The notes under the pieces were generated by a model. The model was given only the letters and a program-made list of their open reading frames with translations. It was not told where the DNA came from and did no database searches. The position numbers and the translations under genes were made by a program. Source: Lichenicoccus roseus (lineage in GTDB: Bacteria; Pseudomonadota; Alphaproteobacteria; Acetobacterales; Acetobacteraceae). From it: a stretch of 64,000 bases of DNA. Below are positions 721-9,725 of this stretch, piece by piece. Position 1 is the first letter of the stretch. The number at the start of each line of letters is the position of its first letter. The stretch spans positions 124,001 through 188,000 of the forward strand of contig NZ_VCDI01000003.1 in NCBI RefSeq assembly GCF_005844085.1, in the 5' to 3' direction.

Positions 721-2322
721 TTGAGCGCGACGCAGATGAAGCTTCCCCCGACCCGGCGACAGCTGCTGACCCGGATCGGCGTCACCGCCGGCAGCGCCGC
801 GATGTACCAGGCGATGACGCGCATGGGCCATGCCGCCGGCACCGATTTCAGGAGCCCGCCCGCGCTCAGCGGCGCCAAGCAGGGGACGACCGTCGTGGTG
901 CTCGGCGCCGGGCTCGCCGGCATGCTGGCGGCCTACGAGCTCAAGCGCGCCGGCTACGGCGTGCGCATCCTGGAGTACCAGAACCGCTCCGGCGGCCGGA
1001 ACTTCTCGCTGCGTGGCGGAGACAGCCTGACCGAACTGGGTGGCGCCACCCAGAAGGTCGGGTTCGCGCCTGGCAACTACATCAATCCGGGGCCGTGGCG
1101 CATCCCGTACCATCACCAGGCGATCCTGCACTACTGCCGTGCCTTCGGGGTGGCGCTGGAGCCGTTCATCGAGGTCAACCACAACGCGCTGCTGCACAAC
1201 AGCGCGAGCTTCGGCGGCACGCCGCAGCGCTACCGCGACATCATGACGGACTTCAACGGCCAGACCGCCGAGCTGCTGGCCAAGGCGATCAACCAGAACC
1301 ATCTCGATGACGTGGTCAGCGCCGACGAACGGCACGACCTGCTCGCCGCCATGCGTGGCTGGGGCCTGCTCGACGTCGACTATGCCTACAGGAAGAGCGA
1401 CAAGGTCTCGCTGCGGCGTGGCTGGGCGAAGGCGCAGGGCGGCGGGCCGGATGGCGCGCCAGTCCCTTCGCAGCCGCTGCCGCGTGCCGAGGTGATGAAG
1501 TCCGGCCTGTGGCAATGGCTCGCCTTCAACATGAACTACGAGATGCAGACCACGATGTTCCAGCCGGTCGGTGGCATGGACATGATCGGCAAGGCCTTTG
1601 CCCGGCAGGTCGAGGGCCTGGTGACCCACAACGTCAAGGTCACCCGCATCGAGCAGGACGAGCGCGGCGTCACCGTCACCTACGACGACAACAACCATGG
1701 CGGTGCGGTCGGCCAGGCGAAGGCCGACTACTGCGTCTGCACCATTCCGCTCTCGGTGCTGAGCCAGATCGACGTGCAGGCGAGGGCGCCGCTGCGGCAG
1801 GCGATCCAGGCGGTGCCGTATGCGAGCTCGGTCAAGGTCGGGCTGGAATTCAACCGGCGGTTCTGGGAGGAGGATGAGCAGATCTACGGCGGCATCAGCT
1901 TCACCGACCAGCCGATGAGCCAGATCTCCTATCCGAGCCACGGCTACTTCTCGGACGGTCCGGCGGTGCTGCTTGGCGCCTACATGTTCGGGGCGGCCGC
2001 CTACGACTTCGCCGGCAAGACGCCGGAACAGCGCGTGCAGGCCGCGCTGCAGCAGGGGGCTGCGCTGCACCACCAGTATCCGAAGGAATTCAGGACCGGC
2101 GTCGGGGTGGCATGGAGCCGGATGCCCTGGACGCTCGGCTGCTGCGCCACCTGGAGCGAGGAGAGCCGTCGCAAGCACTACAGGGACCTGACCGAGATGG
2201 ACAACCGCCTGGTGCTGGCCGGCGAGCACGCCTCCTATGTCGGCTGCTGGCAGGAGGGCGCGCTGCTGTCCTCGCTGGCGGCGATCACCCAGCTGCACCA
2301 GCGCGCCGTGAGGGCCGCATGA
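721..2322 (+). CDS. Tat-exported flavin monoamine oxidase family protein
   Basis: 533 residues, a normal length for FAD amine oxidases. The TTG at 721 is chosen because GGAG stands 8 bases upstream; an ATG at 736 lacks a ribosome binding site. Residues 11-31 form a twin-arginine signal (TRRQLLTRIG, then a hydrophobic stretch), so the protein should be folded with FAD and exported. The FAD-binding loop GAGLAG is at 62-67, followed by GGRNF near 91-95. The C-terminus carries the family's second FAD motif, AGEHASY...EGALLSS. Family members oxidise an amine or amino acid to an imine. The next gene is a cytochrome c with a 4-nt overlap, then a RidA. This suggests the reduced flavin is reoxidised by the cytochrome, as reported for the related nicotine oxidoreductase NicA2. 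The substrate is not identifiable. Confidence 0.88.
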   Translation: MSATQMKLPPTRRQLLTRIGVTAGSAAMYQAMTRMGHAAGTDFRSPPALSGAKQGTTVVVLGAGLAGMLAAYELKRAGYGVRILEYQNRSGGRNFSLRGGDSLTELGGATQKVGFAPGNYINPGPWRIPYHHQAILHYCRAFGVALEPFIEVNHNALLHNSASFGGTPQRYRDIMTDFNGQTAELLAKAINQNHLDDVVSADERHDLLAAMRGWGLLDVDYAYRKSDKVSLRRGWAKAQGGGPDGAPVPSQPLPRAEVMKSGLWQWLAFNMNYEMQTTMFQPVGGMDMIGKAFARQVEGLVTHNVKVTRIEQDERGVTVTYDDNNHGGAVGQAKADYCVCTIPLSVLSQIDVQARAPLRQAIQAVPYASSVKVGLEFNRRFWEEDEQIYGGISFTDQPMSQISYPSHGYFSDGPAVLLGAYMFGAAAYDFAGKTPEQRVQAALQQGAALHHQYPKEFRTGVGVAWSRMPWTLGCCATWSEESRRKHYRDLTEMDNRLVLAGEHASYVGCWQEGALLSSLAAITQLHQRAVRAA

Positions 2323-2747
2323 TGCGCCGCCTCGCACTTGCCACCGCCGTCTTCGCGGCGTCGGCGTCGCTTTGCTCGACCGGGCCGGCGCACGCCGACG
2401 CCGCCAGCAGCGCCGGCGGCGGCCCGGCCATCAAGGCGGATTCCGGCCAGCAGGTCTACCAGCATGTCTGCCAGGGCTGCCACATGGCGAATGGCCAGGG
2501 TGGCGTCGGCGCGGCCCGCATCCCGGCGCTGGCGCACAACGCAAAGCTCGAGAGCGCAGGCTACCCGACCTACGTCGTGCTGAACGGCCTCGGCGGCATG
2601 CCCTGGTTCAACGGCATGCTGTCCGATGCGCAGGTCGCCGCGGTGATCACCTACGTGCGCACGCATTTCGGCAACGACTACAAGGACCCAGTCAAATCCG
2701 CCGACATCGCCGCCTTGCGCGGGCCGGCGCCGACCATGGAGAACTGA
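2319..2747 (+). CDS. Small periplasmic c-type cytochrome, likely electron acceptor of the amine oxidase
   Basis: 142 residues. The ATG at 2319 overlaps the amine oxidase stop (ATGA); a second in-frame ATG follows at 2322. Residues 1-27 are a Sec signal peptide ending in AHA. One haem site, CQGCH, is at 51-55, and Met94 in GGMPWFNG is the likely second axial ligand, giving a class I monohaem cytochrome. The tail after about residue 125 is short and hydrophilic, with no membrane anchor, so it should be soluble in the periplasm. The tight coupling to a Tat-exported flavoprotein makes it the obvious redox partner. Electrons would pass on to the terminal respiratory chain, which is not in this window. 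Confidence 0.9.
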   Translation: MMRRLALATAVFAASASLCSTGPAHADAASSAGGGPAIKADSGQQVYQHVCQGCHMANGQGGVGAARIPALAHNAKLESAGYPTYVVLNGLGGMPWFNGMLSDAQVAAVITYVRTHFGNDYKDPVKSADIAALRGPAPTMEN

Positions 2748-2751
2748 GAGA

Positions 2752-3234
2752 GTGACGCGATTGTTCCAGGCCGGTCTTCCCCAGGGCACCTGTGCGCTGC
2801 TGCTCGGCTGCGGCCTCGCCGTCCCGGCGCTGGCAGACGGCATCGTTCGCCATCCGGTGCCGAACTTCCCGATCTCGGCCGCGGTGGAGGTGCCGGCGGG
2901 ATACTCCACGATCTACCTCTCCGGCGTCGGCCCGGACCCGGCCGACCATGCCACCGACACCGAGAGCCAGGCGCGCAGCGAGATCAAGCGGCTCGGCGCA
3001 GAGCTGGCCGCGATGCATCTCGGACTTGGCGACGTGGTGGCGATGCACGTCTTCATCGCCCCCGATCCGAAGACCGGCAAGATGGATTTCCCCGGCATGA
3101 TGAAGGCCTACAAGGAGGCGTTCGGAACTGCCGCGCAGCCGAACCTGCCGACGCGGGCAGCGTTCCAGGTAGCGGGGCTTGCCGGTCCCGGCATGCTGAT
3201 CGAGATCGAGGTCATCGCCGCCCGCAAGCCCTGA
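2752..3234 (+). CDS. RidA (YjgF/YER057c) family protein with a signal peptide
   Basis: 160 residues from a GTG start; the GGAG at the end of the cytochrome gene serves as ribosome binding site. Most RidA proteins are about 130 residues and cytosolic. This one has about 29 extra N-terminal residues that read as a Sec signal peptide (hydrophobic run 13-27, ALA cleavage site), so it should be periplasmic. Arg135 in LPTRAAF and the acidic pair in IEIE (151-153) match the substrate-binding arginine and glutamate of imine-hydrolysing RidA members. RidA converts reactive enamines and imines to ketones plus ammonia. Next to an imine-forming oxidase this fits a clean-up or product-release step. The DapA-family gene in the same operon (4890) is an alternative metabolic partner. 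Confidence 0.88.
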   Translation: MTRLFQAGLPQGTCALLLGCGLAVPALADGIVRHPVPNFPISAAVEVPAGYSTIYLSGVGPDPADHATDTESQARSEIKRLGAELAAMHLGLGDVVAMHVFIAPDPKTGKMDFPGMMKAYKEAFGTAAQPNLPTRAAFQVAGLAGPGMLIEIEVIAARKP

Positions 3235-3259
3235 CGCTCCGGATACAGGGAACACCGCC

Positions 3260-4243
3260 ATGCAGATCGCGATCCTCGATGACTGGCAGGGGGTCGCGCG
3301 GGAAAGTGCAGACTGGTCCGGGCTCGCCGCCAGGGCCGGGCTGCGCTTCTTCGAGGAGGCGTTCGCGGACGAGGATGCGGCGGCCGCGGCGCTGGCCGGC
3401 TTCGAGATCGTGCTGTCGATGCGCGAGCGGACGCCGTTGCCGGGCTCGCTGATCGAGCGACTGCCCCGGCTGCGCATGCTGGGCATCACCGGAGCGAAGA
3501 ATCCCTCGCTCGATGTCGCCGCCTGCACGGCGCATGGCATCGTCGTCTGCAACACGGCTTCCTCCGGACAGGGCGGATACGCCACGGCGGAACTGGCACT
3601 CGGCCTGCTGCTGGCGGCGGCGCGTGCCATCCCGGCAGCAGACGCCAACATGCGAGCCGGCCGGTTCCAGCAGGGACTGCCGGTCGGCATCGGGCTCGCC
3701 GGACGGACGCTGGGGCTGATCGGCCTCGGACGGCTCGGCGCCCGCATGGCGCAGTATGGGCGTGCGCTCGACATGGAGGTGGTGGCCTGGAGCCGGAACC
3801 TCACCGACGAGGCCGCCACCGCCGCCGGGGCGACACGGGTGCCGCTCGACGCGCTGCTGCAGCGATCGGACGCCGTCAGCCTGCACCTGGTGCTCTCGGA
3901 GCGCAGCCGGGCTACCCTTGGGGCGGCCGAACTGGCGCGCATGAAGCCGGGCGCGATCCTGATCAACACCTCCCGCGGGCCGCTGGTCGACGAGGCGGCT
4001 CTGATCGACGCGGTGCAGGGTGGCCGGATCGTCGCCGCGCTCGACGTGTTCGACCGCGAGCCGCTGCCGGCCGATCATCCGCTGCGGCATGCGGGCAACT
4101 GCGTTCTGGTCCCGCATCTCGGCTACGGGGTCGCCGAGACCTGGGCCGACTTCTATCCGCAGAGCGTGGAGAACGCGCAGGCTTTCATGGACGGCCAGCC
4201 CGTGCGGGTGGTCAATCCCGAGGTGCTGCCCGGTCGCGCCTGA
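3260..4243 (+). CDS. D-2-hydroxyacid dehydrogenase family protein
   Basis: 327 residues, the usual length. It starts 25 bases after ridA and belongs to the same operon. The NAD(P)-binding loop GLGRLG is at 155-160. The catalytic triad of the family is present: Arg239 (NTSRGPLVDE), Glu267 (REPLP) and His286 (VPHLGYG). Members reduce 2-keto acids to D-2-hydroxy acids or act in reverse; phosphoglycerate dehydrogenases and formate dehydrogenases share the fold. There is no C-terminal ACT domain, so serine-pathway SerA is unlikely. A 2-keto acid released upstream by oxidase plus RidA would be a natural substrate, although this enzyme has no export signal and works in the cytosol. Confidence 0.88.
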   Translation: MQIAILDDWQGVARESADWSGLAARAGLRFFEEAFADEDAAAAALAGFEIVLSMRERTPLPGSLIERLPRLRMLGITGAKNPSLDVAACTAHGIVVCNTASSGQGGYATAELALGLLLAAARAIPAADANMRAGRFQQGLPVGIGLAGRTLGLIGLGRLGARMAQYGRALDMEVVAWSRNLTDEAATAAGATRVPLDALLQRSDAVSLHLVLSERSRATLGAAELARMKPGAILINTSRGPLVDEAALIDAVQGGRIVAALDVFDREPLPADHPLRHAGNCVLVPHLGYGVAETWADFYPQSVENAQAFMDGQPVRVVNPEVLPGRA

Positions 4244-4284
4244 CAGCCTCGCCATGGAAGCACCGGGCGATTAGCCTGTGCGTC

Positions 4285-4893
4285 ATGCCCGACCTTGACC
4301 GCCCATCATCGCCGTTCGCCATCACCGTCTGCGGTATCGAGGAACTCTGCGACGCAGCGGCGCCGGGCAACGGCCGCGCCGTGTCGCACGTGCTGTCGAT
4401 CCTCGATCCAGGGCATCCGGTGCCGGAGGCGTTCGGCCTCTACGGCGAGCATGTCCGGCTGGAACTGCGCTTCCACGACATCATCGAGGACCGTGACGGC
4501 GAGCAGCGTCCCGGGCCCGAGCATGTCGAGGCCATCCTGGCGTTCGGCAGGACGCTGCACGACGAGCCGCAGGGAGCGGCCAGCCTGCTCGTCCACTGCC
4601 ATGCCGGCATTTCGCGCTCGACGGCGGCGCTGGTGCTGATCCTGGCGCAGGCGATGCCCGACGCTCCGGCGGCGCAGATCGTGCAGCTGGTGCATTCCAT
4701 TCGCGAGAAGGCGTGGCCCAACCTGCGGCTGATCGAGCTGGGCGACGCCATGCTGGAGCGCTCGGGCAGCCTGGTGGCGGCGACGCATGCGCTGCACCGG
4801 CTGCAGCTCGAGCGTCGGCCGCATGTCCGGGAGTACATGGAGCAGGGTGGGCGCAGCCGGGAGATCCAGGCGGCGCTGCAGGTGCCGGCATGA
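4285..4893 (+). CDS. Dual-specificity/tyrosine phosphatase-like protein
   Basis: 202 residues. The signature loop HCHAGISRSTA contains Cys105 and Arg111, the CX5R nucleophile and phosphate-binding pair of protein tyrosine and dual-specificity phosphatases. Asp65 or Asp69 (FHDIIED) is placed to act as general acid. There is no signal peptide or membrane segment. It lies 41 bases after the dehydrogenase gene and overlaps the next gene by 4 nt (ATGA at 4890), so it is co-translated with a DapA-family enzyme. Its substrate is unknown: a phosphoprotein or a small phosphorylated metabolite are both possible. A phosphatase of this type in a catabolic-looking operon is unusual. Confidence 0.8.
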   Translation: MPDLDRPSSPFAITVCGIEELCDAAAPGNGRAVSHVLSILDPGHPVPEAFGLYGEHVRLELRFHDIIEDRDGEQRPGPEHVEAILAFGRTLHDEPQGAASLLVHCHAGISRSTAALVLILAQAMPDAPAAQIVQLVHSIREKAWPNLRLIELGDAMLERSGSLVAATHALHRLQLERRPHVREYMEQGGRSREIQAALQVPA

Positions 4894-5783
4894 ACCTGTT
4901 CCGCGGCCTGGTCGCGTTCCCGATCACGCCGGCGGACGAGGCCGGGCGGGTCGATACCGATGCGCTCCGGCGCCTGCTGCGCCGGCTTGTCGAGGCCGGC
5001 GTGCCGTCCATCGGACTGCTTGGCAGCACCGGCATCTACGCCTACCTCGACCGCACCGAGCGGCGCCGGGCGATCGAGGCGGCGGTGGACGAGGTGGCGG
5101 GACGGGTGCCGCTGCTGGTCGGCATCGGCGCGTTGCGCACCGACGAGGCAATCCGGCTGGGCGAGGATGCGCGTGGCTGCGGTGCGGCAGGCGTATTGCT
5201 GGCGCCGGTCTCCTACACGCCGCTCACTGCCGAAGAGGTGGCCGCGCACTTCGTCGCCGTCGCCGAGGCGGTGCGGCTGCCGCTCTGCATCTACGACAAT
5301 CCGGGAACGACGCGGTTCAGCTTCGAGGCGGGGCTCGTCGGACGGCTGAGCCGGGCGCCCGGCATCGTCGCGATCAAGACCCCGGCGCCCTTGCCTCGGC
5401 TGGTCGCCGGGAACCTGCACGCGTTGCGCGCTGCCGCGCCGTCCGGCTTCTCGGTCGGCTATTCGGTGGACTGGCAGGCGACGGCCGCGCTCCGGGCTGG
5501 CGGTGATGCTTGGTATAGCGTGGCGGGCGGGTTGTTCCCGCGCTCATGCGTGGCAATCGTCGAGGCGGTGGCGCAAGGCGACGCGGCACGTTCGGCCGAA
5601 GCCGAGGGCCGCATGCAGCCGCTGTGGGATCTGTTCACCGAATTCAGCAGCCTGCGCGTGATGTATGCCTGCGCGAACCATCTCGGCCTGTGCCGGTCAC
5701 AGCCCCCATTGCCGATCCGGCCGCTGCCGGACACCGCGCGCAAACGGATCGCCGACACCCTGGGCCGGCTCGACCTCGACTAG
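4890..5783 (+). CDS. DapA/N-acetylneuraminate lyase family class I aldolase or dehydratase
   Basis: 297 residues, the family norm of about 300. The ATG overlaps the phosphatase stop (ATGA). The TIM-barrel residues of the family are visible: the Schiff-base lysine Lys163 (VAIKTPA), Tyr135 (IYDNPGT) and the GSTG substrate loop at 45-48. Family members condense or cleave pyruvate-containing compounds: dihydrodipicolinate synthase, sialic acid lyase, 2-keto-3-deoxygluconate aldolase and related dehydratases. The loop reads GSTGIY rather than the GTTGE of true DapA, and the operon context is catabolic, so I do not call it dapA. As the last gene of the operon it may handle the keto acid made upstream. 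The exact reaction is open. Confidence 0.82.
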   Translation: MNLFRGLVAFPITPADEAGRVDTDALRRLLRRLVEAGVPSIGLLGSTGIYAYLDRTERRRAIEAAVDEVAGRVPLLVGIGALRTDEAIRLGEDARGCGAAGVLLAPVSYTPLTAEEVAAHFVAVAEAVRLPLCIYDNPGTTRFSFEAGLVGRLSRAPGIVAIKTPAPLPRLVAGNLHALRAAAPSGFSVGYSVDWQATAALRAGGDAWYSVAGGLFPRSCVAIVEAVAQGDAARSAEAEGRMQPLWDLFTEFSSLRVMYACANHLGLCRSQPPLPIRPLPDTARKRIADTLGRLDLD

Positions 5784-5808
5784 GACCAGTTGTCGGATGG
5801 CCGGGAGT

Positions 5809-6189
5809 TCAACGCCCGTGTCCACCACCACCACCGTGTCCACCGCCGCCGTGGCCACCACCACCGCCGCCGCGGCCACCGCCGCCACCGCCGAAATGGC
5901 CGCCGCCCGGATGTCCGCCGAAGCCGCCGCGTCCACCCGGGATGGACGGAATACGGCCGCCGCCACGTGGACCATGCCAAGGGTGTCCACCACCCCCGCG
6001 GTAGTAGCCGCCCCCGAACGGGCCGACGTCGTAGCCGGGTCCCCAGCCGCCATAGCTGCCGCCATAGCCCTCGTAGTAGCCGCCGCCGTAATCGTAGCCG
6101 GGGCCGCCAGGACCGACACAGCCGGCAACCAGGATGCCGACGCAGCCGAGGACGAGGAACGCCAGCGGGCGCACGGACCGGGCGCTCAT
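5809..6189 (-). CDS. Gly/His/Tyr-rich small lipoprotein
   Basis: 126 residues. The ATG at 6189 overlaps the stop of the VOC gene (ATGA). Residues 1-24 form a lipoprotein signal with lipobox LVAGC and Cys24 as the lipidated residue. The rest is low complexity: first GYDYGGGYYEGYGG-like, then a C-terminal half of Gly runs broken by His (GGGGHGGGGHG). Such sequence may be disordered and could bind metal ions through histidine. No family is recognised. The opposite strand is open here because of the GGC/GCC repeats, but only this frame has a lipobox, a coupled start and a sensible stop. Confidence 0.7.
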   Translation of the reverse strand: MSARSVRPLAFLVLGCVGILVAGCVGPGGPGYDYGGGYYEGYGGSYGGWGPGYDVGPFGGGYYRGGGGHPWHGPRGGGRIPSIPGGRGGFGGHPGGGHFGGGGGGRGGGGGGHGGGGHGGGGGHGR

Positions 6190-7112
6190 TTCGCGTCTCC
6201 CTGGGCAGCGTCGTCGGACCATTGCATCAGCCCGAATGCGGCGCCGAGCGGATCCGCGACGACGGCGATCCGGCTGCCGCCGTGGTCGAGCTTCGGCGCC
6301 ACCAGGACGCGTCCGCCGAGTGCTACCGCCTGTTTCGCGGTGGCGTCGACATCTGCGACCCGGAGGTAGTCGAGCCAGCGCGGGTGTGCGTCCGGGCGGC
6401 TGGCCGGGACCGGGTTCACGCTCGCCCGGGCATAGCCATCCGAGGCCAGCACGAGATGATGGGCATCGGCTGCCGTGGTGGTGTCGTAGACGTCGCAGCC
6501 GAGCAGGGTCTGGTAGAAGGCGGCGGCGTCGTCCGGATCGGTGGTGATCAGCGAACTCCAGATCCAATCGCCCGGTCCGGCGGCGGTATCCGGCGGGTCG
6601 CCGCTGCCGGAGGCCAGCAGTGCGAACACCGCGCCCTGCGGATCCCGGAGCACCGCTTCCTGGCCGAGATCGGGAATGTCACGCGGCCCGAACAGCAGCC
6701 TTGCGCCGTGCGAGGTGGCGGTGGCGCTGGTCGCGGAGACATCGCGCGCCGAGAAGAAGGTCAGCCACGCCGACTGCATCTTCGCCCCGGGCGGCAGATC
6801 ACGCTGGTAGAGGCTGGCAACGTGGCGATCGCCGAGCCAGGCGGTCGCGTACGGCACCGACCCGCCGGGCAACGCCCTGAAGCTCCAGCCGAACAGCCCG
6901 CCGTAGAAGCGCTCGGCCGCCTGCAGGTCGGGCGTCACCAGCTGTTCGAAGATGACCTTGCCGGGATGATGCTCGGCCGTGGCCGGCTGCTGCAGCGGCG
7001 GAAGTCTCGGCGGCAGAGCGCCCGCCGGCCCGCCGGCCACCCCGACGAGCAGGCCTGTCGCGACAGCGGTGGCGGCGAGAAGCCAGGCCGTCCGGATGGA
7101 TGTTCGTTGCAC
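6186..7112 (-). CDS. Exported protein with two VOC (glyoxalase/bleomycin-resistance fold) domains
   Basis: 308 residues from a GTG at 7112, chosen because AGGAG lies 6 bases upstream and the translation then opens with a signal peptide (residues 1-32). Two VOC domains follow: about 40-160 (KVIFEQLVTPD...FYGGLFGW) and about 175-295 (WSSLITTDPDDAAAFYQTLLG). Pairs of VOC domains form one metal or ligand site in glyoxalases, dioxygenases and resistance proteins. VOC proteins are usually cytosolic, so the export signal is notable. The next gene, coupled by ATGA, is a Gly/His-rich lipoprotein, suggesting a shared cell-envelope role. Substrate unknown. Confidence 0.82.
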   Translation of the reverse strand: MQRTSIRTAWLLAATAVATGLLVGVAGGPAGALPPRLPPLQQPATAEHHPGKVIFEQLVTPDLQAAERFYGGLFGWSFRALPGGSVPYATAWLGDRHVASLYQRDLPPGAKMQSAWLTFFSARDVSATSATATSHGARLLFGPRDIPDLGQEAVLRDPQGAVFALLASGSGDPPDTAAGPGDWIWSSLITTDPDDAAAFYQTLLGCDVYDTTTAADAHHLVLASDGYARASVNPVPASRPDAHPRWLDYLRVADVDATAKQAVALGGRVLVAPKLDHGGSRIAVVADPLGAAFGLMQWSDDAAQGDAK

Positions 7113-7221
7113 CGTTGTCTCCTGGCGGCGCGCCAGCAGCAACCGACGCGATCCGGTAACGGCGAGGTGCGCAGGCGGTTGCCCGTCACCCCGCACAGGC
7201 CGGATTGTTACGGAAAACGAA

Positions 7222-7250
7222 TTGTCTTGCTCGTAAACAAATCGTTATTT
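7222..7250 (+). promoter_or_regulatory. Possible sigma70-type promoter for the diguanylate cyclase gene
   Basis: In a visibly A/T-rich patch between the two divergent genes, TTGTCT at 7222-7227 and TTATTT at 7245-7250 are separated by 17 bases, a fair match to a sigma70 promoter. It lies about 43 bases before the ATG at 7293. The match is moderate and untested. Confidence 0.35.
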
Positions 7251-7292
7251 AGGTCTGACAAACGTTGTAAACGGCCGTGCGGAAGCCTCGAC

Positions 7293-9725
7293 ATGACGAC
7301 AGACACGATGCCTGGACACCCTGGCGGCCGCAGGCTCCGCGCGGAAGGCTCGCGCGGACCGGTGGCTGCCATCGCGTTGCTGATCGCCGGCTTCACCTTC
7401 GTCTCCGTCGTCATGCTGGTGCAACTGCGCCGGGACACCTGGAACCAGGCCGTCACCGGGGCGGCCAACCTGAATGCCGCGATGGCCGCCGATATCGCGC
7501 GCACCATCGGCGACTATGACCTGTCGTTGCAGGAAGTGGCGGCCGGATTGCACGAGCCCAGCCTCGACCGGCTGCCGCCGCATGTGCAACGGCTCATGCT
7601 GTTCGACCGCTCGGCCACCGCGCAGACGTTCGGCACCATCCTGGTGCTTGATCGCAACGGACAGGTGGTGCGCGATGCCGCTCGCGACGTGGTCGCCACG
7701 GTTGCGTCATATGGCGCCAGCGACTTCTTCCAGGCCGTCCGGCGCGACGCCGCGGCCGGCCTGCGCATCGATTTCGATCCCGGCAGCGTGCTCGGCCGGG
7801 GTCCGTCGATCCTGCTCAGCCGGCGGCTCAGCCGTCCGGACGGCAGCTTCGACGGCGTCGTGGTGGGAAGTCTGCGCATCGGCAGCCTCAGGGCCCTGTT
7901 CGGCCGGTCCCGGCTGGGTCCGAACGGCGCGGTCAGCCTGTTCCGCGACGACGGCACGTACCTGCTGCGCATGCCATACGATCCGTCGCTGGCTGGCCGC
8001 AACATCGCGAACAGCGCGAACTTTCGCCGCTTCCAGGAAGGCGCGGCAGGCACCTTCACCGCGCCGTCGCAGATCGACGGGGTGCGCAGGGTCTACAGCT
8101 TCACCCACGTCGCCGGGTTGCCGCTGGTGCTCGACGTGGCGCTCGCGGAGAGCGACATCTTCGCCGTCTGGCACAGCCGCGCCCTGGTCATCGGCCTGGT
8201 GCTGGCGATGCTGTGCGCGACGTCGGTCGCCTTCGGCATCCTGCACCGGCGGGAGACACGCCGGCGCATCGACACCGAGGCGGGCCATCGCCAGAGCGAG
8301 CGGCTCTACCGGATGCTGGCCGACCACGCGAGCGACGTGATCGTGCGGCTGGACCACAACCAGGTGCGCACCTACGTGTCGCCGTCGGTCCGGGTGCGCC
8401 TCGGCTTCGAGCCGGAGGAGCTGATCGGGCGGCATCCACATGCCCTGGTGCATCCCGACGACTGGTCGCGGGTCGCGCAGCTTCTCGAGCAGGCGCAGCA
8501 GACCCTCGCCGATACGGAGGCGACCTACCGGGTTCGCCACAAGAACGGCGAATATGTCTGGATGGAAGGGCGCTACAGCTACCTGCCCGAGGATGGCGGC
8601 TTCGTGGTGGCACTCCGCGACATCTCCAGGCGCAAGGCGGCGGAGCACCAGCTCGAGGCGGCGAACGCCGAGCTCGCACACCTGGCCAACAGCGACGGCC
8701 TGACCGGTCTCGCCAATCGGCGCCAGTTCGAGGACGTACTTGCCCGGGAATGCCGGCGCGCCGCGCGCGATGCCCAGCCACTGTCGCTGCTGCTGCTCGA
8801 TGTCGACGTCTTCAAGAAATTCAACGATCGCTACGGCCACCAGGCTGGCGATCGCTGCCTGCAGGCGGTGGCGGCGTCGCTGGCGGGAACGGCGAGGCGG
8901 CCGGCCGACCTCGCTGTGCGCTATGGCGGCGAGGAGATGGCGCTGCTGCTGCCCGGTGTCGCGGAGACCGGCGCCGGCGTCGTGGCCGAGCGGGTGCGAT
9001 CGGCGATCGAGGCGTTGAGCCTGCGCCACGAAGGCAATCCCCGCGGAGGCGGCGTCGTCACCGTCAGCGTCGGCAGCGCCACCATCTATCCGTCGCACGA
9101 GAATCCGCGCCTCGACGGCCCCGAGCTGGTCGCTTCCGCCGATCGTGCCCTCTACGAGGCGAAGCGGCTGGGACGCAACCGCGTGGTCAGCTTCGGCGGG
9201 ATGACGGCAGCGCGCCAGGCCCCGGTCGCCGTCGACGAGGCGCTCCGGCTGCAAGCGGTGGAGCCATATGCGATGGTTGCAGCCGGCCTGGCGGGCGCCA
9301 AGCTCGACCAGCTTGCGCGGCTGGCCGCCGGCCTGTTCGGCAGCCCGGCTGCATACATCTCGCTGGTCGGCGCCAGCGAGGTGCAACTGATCGGGCGCTA
9401 CGAGATCGACCTGCTCAGCACGCCGCGTGATACCGCGCTCTGTTCGCACACCATCGCCGGCTCGGCGCCGCTGGTGATCTGCGACACCGCGCGCGATCCC
9501 CGCTTCGCCGGCAATCCGCACGTCACCGGCCCGAACGGCCTGCGCTTCTATGCAGGTGCGCCGATGTTCAGCCCGATCGATGGCCACGTGCTCGGGGCGC
9601 TGTGCATCGTCGACAACCGGCCGCGCCCGGCCCTGACCGGCGAGCAGAGCACCCTGCTGATGGACCTGGCAGCGCTCGCGGTGGACCACATGGAGCGCGT
9701 GCGCACGCTCTCGCACGAGAGCTGA
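7293..9725 (+). CDS. Membrane diguanylate cyclase with Cache, PAS, GGDEF and GAF domains
   Basis: 810 residues from the ATG at 7293; the frame stays open upstream, but that stretch is the antisense of the VOC gene. A transmembrane helix at about 24-44 and another at about 290-312 enclose a periplasmic Cache-like sensor. A PAS domain (about 333-450) precedes the GGDEF domain (about 460-640). The active-site loop is GGEEM at 545-549, with Met in place of the usual Phe. An inhibitory I-site, RPAD, lies at its normal place just before RYGGEEM. A GAF domain (about 650-805) closes the protein, an uncommon position downstream of GGDEF. It should make cyclic di-GMP in response to an outside ligand and an inside one, with product inhibition. 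Confidence 0.9.
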   Translation: MTTDTMPGHPGGRRLRAEGSRGPVAAIALLIAGFTFVSVVMLVQLRRDTWNQAVTGAANLNAAMAADIARTIGDYDLSLQEVAAGLHEPSLDRLPPHVQRLMLFDRSATAQTFGTILVLDRNGQVVRDAARDVVATVASYGASDFFQAVRRDAAAGLRIDFDPGSVLGRGPSILLSRRLSRPDGSFDGVVVGSLRIGSLRALFGRSRLGPNGAVSLFRDDGTYLLRMPYDPSLAGRNIANSANFRRFQEGAAGTFTAPSQIDGVRRVYSFTHVAGLPLVLDVALAESDIFAVWHSRALVIGLVLAMLCATSVAFGILHRRETRRRIDTEAGHRQSERLYRMLADHASDVIVRLDHNQVRTYVSPSVRVRLGFEPEELIGRHPHALVHPDDWSRVAQLLEQAQQTLADTEATYRVRHKNGEYVWMEGRYSYLPEDGGFVVALRDISRRKAAEHQLEAANAELAHLANSDGLTGLANRRQFEDVLARECRRAARDAQPLSLLLLDVDVFKKFNDRYGHQAGDRCLQAVAASLAGTARRPADLAVRYGGEEMALLLPGVAETGAGVVAERVRSAIEALSLRHEGNPRGGGVVTVSVGSATIYPSHENPRLDGPELVASADRALYEAKRLGRNRVVSFGGMTAARQAPVAVDEALRLQAVEPYAMVAAGLAGAKLDQLARLAAGLFGSPAAYISLVGASEVQLIGRYEIDLLSTPRDTALCSHTIAGSAPLVICDTARDPRFAGNPHVTGPNGLRFYAGAPMFSPIDGHVLGALCIVDNRPRPALTGEQSTLLMDLAALAVDHMERVRTLSHES

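Follow-up and report, generated by a model that had tools for sequence, protein, structure and literature searches.

The DNA considered here is a 64,000-nt stretch of the Lichenicoccus roseus genome (Acetobacteraceae; contig NZ_VCDI01000003.1, positions 124,001 to 188,000), hereafter the window, in which six genes follow one another in a single run on the forward strand (721-5783; Table 1). The first three (721-3234), which are the main subject of this work, form a compact unit encoding an FAD enzyme with a twin-arginine translocation (Tat) signal, a monohaem cytochrome c and a Rid protein preceded by a leader; open reading frame, Pfam and motif calls confirm this layout, which was already that of the original prediction made on this DNA. 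The cytochrome gene starts at one of two ATG codons, 2319 or 2322, the former giving a 4-nt overlap with the stop codon of the flavoenzyme gene. Signal peptides were assigned by sequence and hydropathy, not by SignalP, and a scan for promoters and terminators returned none above chance.

Table 1. Genes of the trio and of its downstream neighbours in the window
Gene or product	Positions	Strand	Assignment
lao, predicted Tat-exported FAD L-amino-acid oxidoreductase, 533 aa, TTG start	721-2322	+	Pfam Amino_oxidase PF01593, E 1.6e-55; orthologue of GDI2456
cccA-like gene for an exported cytochrome c with one haem motif (CQGCH) and a GMP axial-Met region	2319-2747	+	Pfam PF13442/PF00034
Rid protein with signal sequence, putative Rid3-like imine deaminase, 160 aa, GTG start	2752-3234	+	Pfam PF01042; orthologue of GDI2454 ridA
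D-2-hydroxyacid dehydrogenase, without signal sequence, outside the conserved module	3260-4243	+	Pfam PF02826
Tyrosine-phosphatase-like protein, outside the conserved module	4285-4893	+	Pfam PF00102, E 5.8e-7
DapA/DHDPS-family protein, outside the conserved module	4890-5783	+	Pfam PF00701, E 2.4e-40

This gene trio is already known. A lao-cccA-ridA operon (GDI2456-GDI2454) was reported in 2016 in the sugarcane bacterium Gluconacetobacter diazotrophicus PAL5, where it was linked to production of the auxin indole-3-acetic acid (IAA). Tn5 insertions in lao abolish IAA production, leave tryptophan in the medium and cause all three operon transcripts to drop together, while mutants of cytochrome c maturation (ccm) make 5% of the IAA; the L-amino-acid oxidase (LAAO) encoded by lao bears a Tat signal, and it was proposed in that work that the cytochrome acts in electron transfer and RidA in imine hydrolysis (PMC5053998). 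One year before, RidA or Rid3 genes had been noted to lie in clusters with genes for FAD amine oxidases (PMC4433059). The six published RT-qPCR primers for lao-cccA-ridA find an exact match at 6/6 sites in one of the loci analysed here (L013, genome G246), whose proteins are about 73% (lao), 54% (cytochrome) and 54% (Rid) identical to those of the window, and the two flavoenzymes fall in one Acetobacteraceae clade. The window trio is orthologous to GDI2456-GDI2454 and is thus a further instance of the operon: genes, gene order and the Tat signal on the LAAO are the same, lao encodes 533 aa in both, and hydrophobic leaders precede the cytochrome and Rid proteins of L013 as they do in the window. 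It differs in that the window Rid carries an 11-residue deletion (see below), a CuA oxidase including a full-length COX2 is retained in the window genome, and the dehydrogenase and DapA-like genes that adjoin the trio here do not do so in other loci. The original prediction had presented Rid as a newly inferred third partner; the same proposal having been published in 2016, this novelty falls away.

Near its N-terminus, the window flavoenzyme displays a TRRQLL motif, ahead of which the TTG start leaves ten residues, like in close relatives, and an RR-type motif is found in nearly all homologues. Its top relative by sequence among solved structures is the LAAO of Rhodococcus opacus (2jae, E 5.8e-79), to which the mature window protein is about 34% identical. 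The same structure matches the fold of an AlphaFold2 model built from 23 sequences (mean pLDDT 82.9) with a TM score of 0.84 and an rmsd of 2.0 A, and is followed in the fold ranking by snake, fungal and other LAAOs. Residues R127, Y421, W510 and K372 align with Arg84, Tyr371, Trp467 and the flavin lysine of the R. opacus enzyme, in which the Arg and Tyr bind the carboxylate; in an alignment of 23 diverse homologues, R127, K372 and W510 never vary and Y421 hardly does. The R. opacus LAAO is not known to have a cytochrome or Rid partner. Because 2jae is closest in both sequence and fold, and because the carboxylate-binding residues are kept, the window flavoenzyme is predicted to be an L-amino-acid oxidoreductase by descent.

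A different substrate class had been suggested at the outset, namely a non-amino-acid amine, by analogy with NicA2. The window enzyme indeed shares with NicA2/CycN, Pnao and other flavoprotein amine dehydrogenases of the Tat+CytC kind its superfamily, a Tat signal and a neighbouring cytochrome c gene (PMC12224317). However, NicA2 (5ttk) appears only at rank 47 in the fold comparison (TM 0.52, 18% identity) and is absent from the 60 best sequence matches, the carboxylate-binding Arg and Tyr are kept, and the genetics of the orthologous operon favour tryptophan (PMC5053998); unlike this group, the window enzyme is of LAAO type in sequence and fold and has a Rid partner in addition. A NicA2-like amine enzyme is hence rejected on sequence and fold rank, and an amine substrate is very improbable, the likeness to NicA2 being valid solely at the superfamily level and for the idea of a cytochrome partner.

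The conservation of this gene arrangement was assessed at loci chosen by the flavoenzyme alone, in 72 of the 299 family genomes (E <= 1e-60), in named GTDB genomes and in class and phylum sets, with duplicate loci removed and neighbours counted by stop positions. Among the 108 non-redundant homologues that are >=50% identical to the window flavoenzyme, the cytochrome gene adjoins in 107 and the Rid gene in 76, the latter thus being absent beside about 30% of them. Homologues with >=65% identity (n=73) have the cytochrome in every case (73/73) and Rid in 62/73, those with 50-65% identity (n=35) in 34/35 and 14/35, respectively, and those below 50% (n=24) in 8/24 and 14/24. In the tree, the cytochrome is the hallmark of a single large clade (108/109 rows), whereas the presence of the Rid gene switches many times; the cytochrome is therefore a near-obligate partner of the flavoenzyme, and Rid a frequent but optional one. 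With only 7 Rid genes in the window genome, linkage of the trio is nonetheless far above chance. Throughout the family, each of the three proteins is preceded by a leader. A single CxxCH motif, CQGCH in the window, is present in the cytochrome, as it is in 85/85 unique cytochrome homologues.

The near-universal pairing supports the cytochrome as the likely electron acceptor. In the superfamily at large, a neighbouring cytochrome c gene is the better predictor of dehydrogenase behaviour, with fast reaction with cytochrome and slow reaction with O2 (PMC12224317). Both this published correlation and the pairing itself, which is absent from more distant relatives that have Rid alone or neither partner, argue against an alternative in which the enzyme is an ordinary periplasmic O2-dependent LAAO making hydrogen peroxide, and in which the cytochrome serves otherwise, e.g., by feeding a peroxide-removing cytochrome c peroxidase.

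Departures from the complete trio also occur. Acetobacter oeni and several species of Gluconacetobacter possess second lao-cytochrome copies devoid of Rid; lao-cytochrome pairs of this kind (L085, L087, L088, L089, L090, L092, L093, L094, L081 and L083) come from several Gluconacetobacter, from Nguyenibacter and from some Acetobacter, and several of their hosts also bear a full trio elsewhere. Conversely, seven distant LAAO relatives (L183, L199, L202, L203, L205, L206 and L209) lie next to a Rid gene with no cytochrome detected; they are candidate true oxidases with imine clearance, and as such a natural comparison set.

The third protein of the trio consists of a Ribonuc_L-PSP/Rid domain (E 2e-15) after the hydrophobic leader CALLLGCGLAVPALA; among the five Rid frames of the window genome that were read, it alone has an obvious leader. 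It fails the archetypal RidA model TIGR00004 (29.6 bits versus a cut-off of 106.25), and the solved structures closest to it, in sequence as in fold, are those of PFL1385 and PSPTO3006 (PDB 9bkc and 9bka), which are about 43% identical to it when aligned by fold. Rid3 proteins are recognized by the replacement of the RidA tyrosine by Ile, while Arg and Glu are retained (PMC4433059). R135, the equivalent of RidA Arg105, E151/E153 and I41, which from the alignment would occupy the position of RidA Tyr17, are invariant across 23 aligned Rid sequences. The window protein, which shares these subfamily marks with PFL1385 and PSPTO3006, is accordingly best described, from its sequence, as being of Rid3 rather than RidA type. 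In vitro, the two Rid3 proteins clear the imines that snake LAAO generates when acting on Leu, Gln, Phe, Met and His (PMC5619798), and this activity, together with the invariant catalytic Arg and Glu, lends support to the proposed function of the window Rid as an imine hydrolase.

We thus consider it fairly likely that the trio is a periplasmic L-amino-acid dehydrogenase system using cytochrome c as acceptor and Rid3 for imine hydrolysis. The Tat-exported FAD enzyme would abstract a hydride at the alpha carbon of its L-amino-acid substrate, of which tryptophan is a likely example given the genetic evidence in the orthologous operon, to form an alpha-imino acid. The two electrons would then pass singly to the periplasmic cytochrome c of the same operon, and not mainly to O2, and a CuA-type cytochrome c oxidase, whose genes lie elsewhere in the window genome, could reoxidise the reduced cytochrome; in parallel, the exported Rid3-type protein would hydrolyse the imino acid within the periplasm, giving keto acid and ammonium. 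To this extent, the mechanism originally predicted is plausible and for the most part in line with the published one. The window genome encodes TatC, CcmE, cytochrome c1 and a COX2 whose CuA motif reads CNQICGINH, and a path to O2 should therefore be available in this bacterium.

Several points nevertheless weigh against such a dehydrogenase system. No biochemistry was found for any member. One aromatic-cage Trp of the R. opacus LAAO, Trp426, aligns with a Cys in the window enzyme, and this closest solved relative is characterised as an oxidase. The flavin-adjacent lysine, an aid to the reaction with O2, is kept in the window enzyme; it is retained in known dehydrogenases too (PMC12224317). 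As to the Rid protein, an 11-residue stretch present in 22/22 aligned relatives (consensus about PxTLAAYG, near residue 67) is missing from it, and A136, G145 and M148 deviate at otherwise conserved positions, so that its activity may be altered. Finally, at least 8 of the 29 operon-bearing genomes have no detectable cytochrome c oxidase: in G218, G009, G271, G280, G030, G221, G134 and G116, which have all three operon genes, the sole COX2-type protein lacks the CuA ligands, and FixO of the cbb3 oxidase was not found. Of the idea that the dehydrogenase passes its electrons to respiration, the cytochrome as acceptor is supported, and respiration is possible in the window genome with its CuA oxidase, while the oxidase-less relatives offer no evident route.

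The same eight genomes could be read in favour of the O2-dependent, peroxide-forming LAAO introduced above, as could the R. opacus precedent and the lysine, since 7/8 of them have a peroxidase of the CCP/MauG family. However, CCP/MauG is likewise frequent in Acetobacteraceae that lack the operon and gave no match in the window genome or in G218; as an operon-specific electron sink, cytochrome c peroxidase is hence uninformative. Together with the cytochrome pairing, this makes a peroxide-forming oxidase unlikely. A related case is that of Chlamydomonas LAO1, a periplasmic L-amino-acid oxidase which, with its LAO2/RidA partner, yields indole-3-pyruvate from tryptophan, but which is algal, makes H2O2 and for which a cytochrome is not described (PMC10805672). 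G218 stands apart from the other oxidase-less genomes: it has a complete trio (L002, L138), but no CuA oxidase, cbb3 FixO or CCP/MauG was found in it.

That acetous bacteria have lost cytochrome oxidase is already on record, and cytochrome c peroxidase has been put forward as an outlet (PMC10715153). A broader proposal, which we put forward tentatively and with somewhat less than even confidence, is that one entire clade of LAAO-type enzymes outside NicA2/Pnao consists of cytochrome c-dependent L-amino-acid dehydrogenases, often with an exported Rid3, and that in acetous bacteria that have lost cytochrome c oxidase these enzymes reduce a periplasmic cytochrome, which may be reoxidised by a peroxidase, by some other membrane dehydrogenase or by an acceptor not yet described. 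If so, enzymes annotated as peroxide-producing LAAOs would become respiratory dehydrogenases, the loss of auxin in G. diazotrophicus cytochrome c maturation mutants would be accounted for, and Rid3 proteins would gain a physiological role outside the cytoplasm. The proposal also sharpens the known puzzle of acetous bacteria retaining periplasmic cytochromes c despite loss of the oxidase that usually reoxidises them (PMC10715153).

Downstream of the trio, the dehydrogenase and the DapA-family enzyme had been proposed to use the carbonyl product, and one may extend this to all six genes forming one catabolic pathway in which these two enzymes consume the keto acid. The genes do share a strand, with gaps of 25 and 41 nt and one overlap, the dehydrogenase gene is possibly on the trio transcript, and indole-3-lactate, a reduced keto acid, is present in G. 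diazotrophicus cultures (PMC5053998). Over 79 named loci, some of them short, a dehydrogenase lies downstream of the trio in only two (L044 and L049, 44-46% identity to that of the window), however, and the phosphatase-like and DapA-like genes in none of the others. In addition, obvious export signals are absent from all three downstream proteins, and the phosphatase-like gene, which the original prediction did not mention, intervenes between the two enzymes. The downstream genes were therefore rejected as conserved pathway members, their role as product users is unsupported given these counts, and a six-gene pathway appears improbable.

Two further features flank this run of genes. A Rieske [2Fe-2S] domain protein is encoded divergently on the minus strand (2-490) and is truncated by the edge of the window. 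On the other side, the open frame 5790-9725 encodes in its C-terminal part a Cache-PAS-GGDEF-GAF diguanylate cyclase; a glyoxalase-domain gene on the opposite strand (6186-7196) overlaps the long N-terminal part of this frame, which is probably non-coding there.

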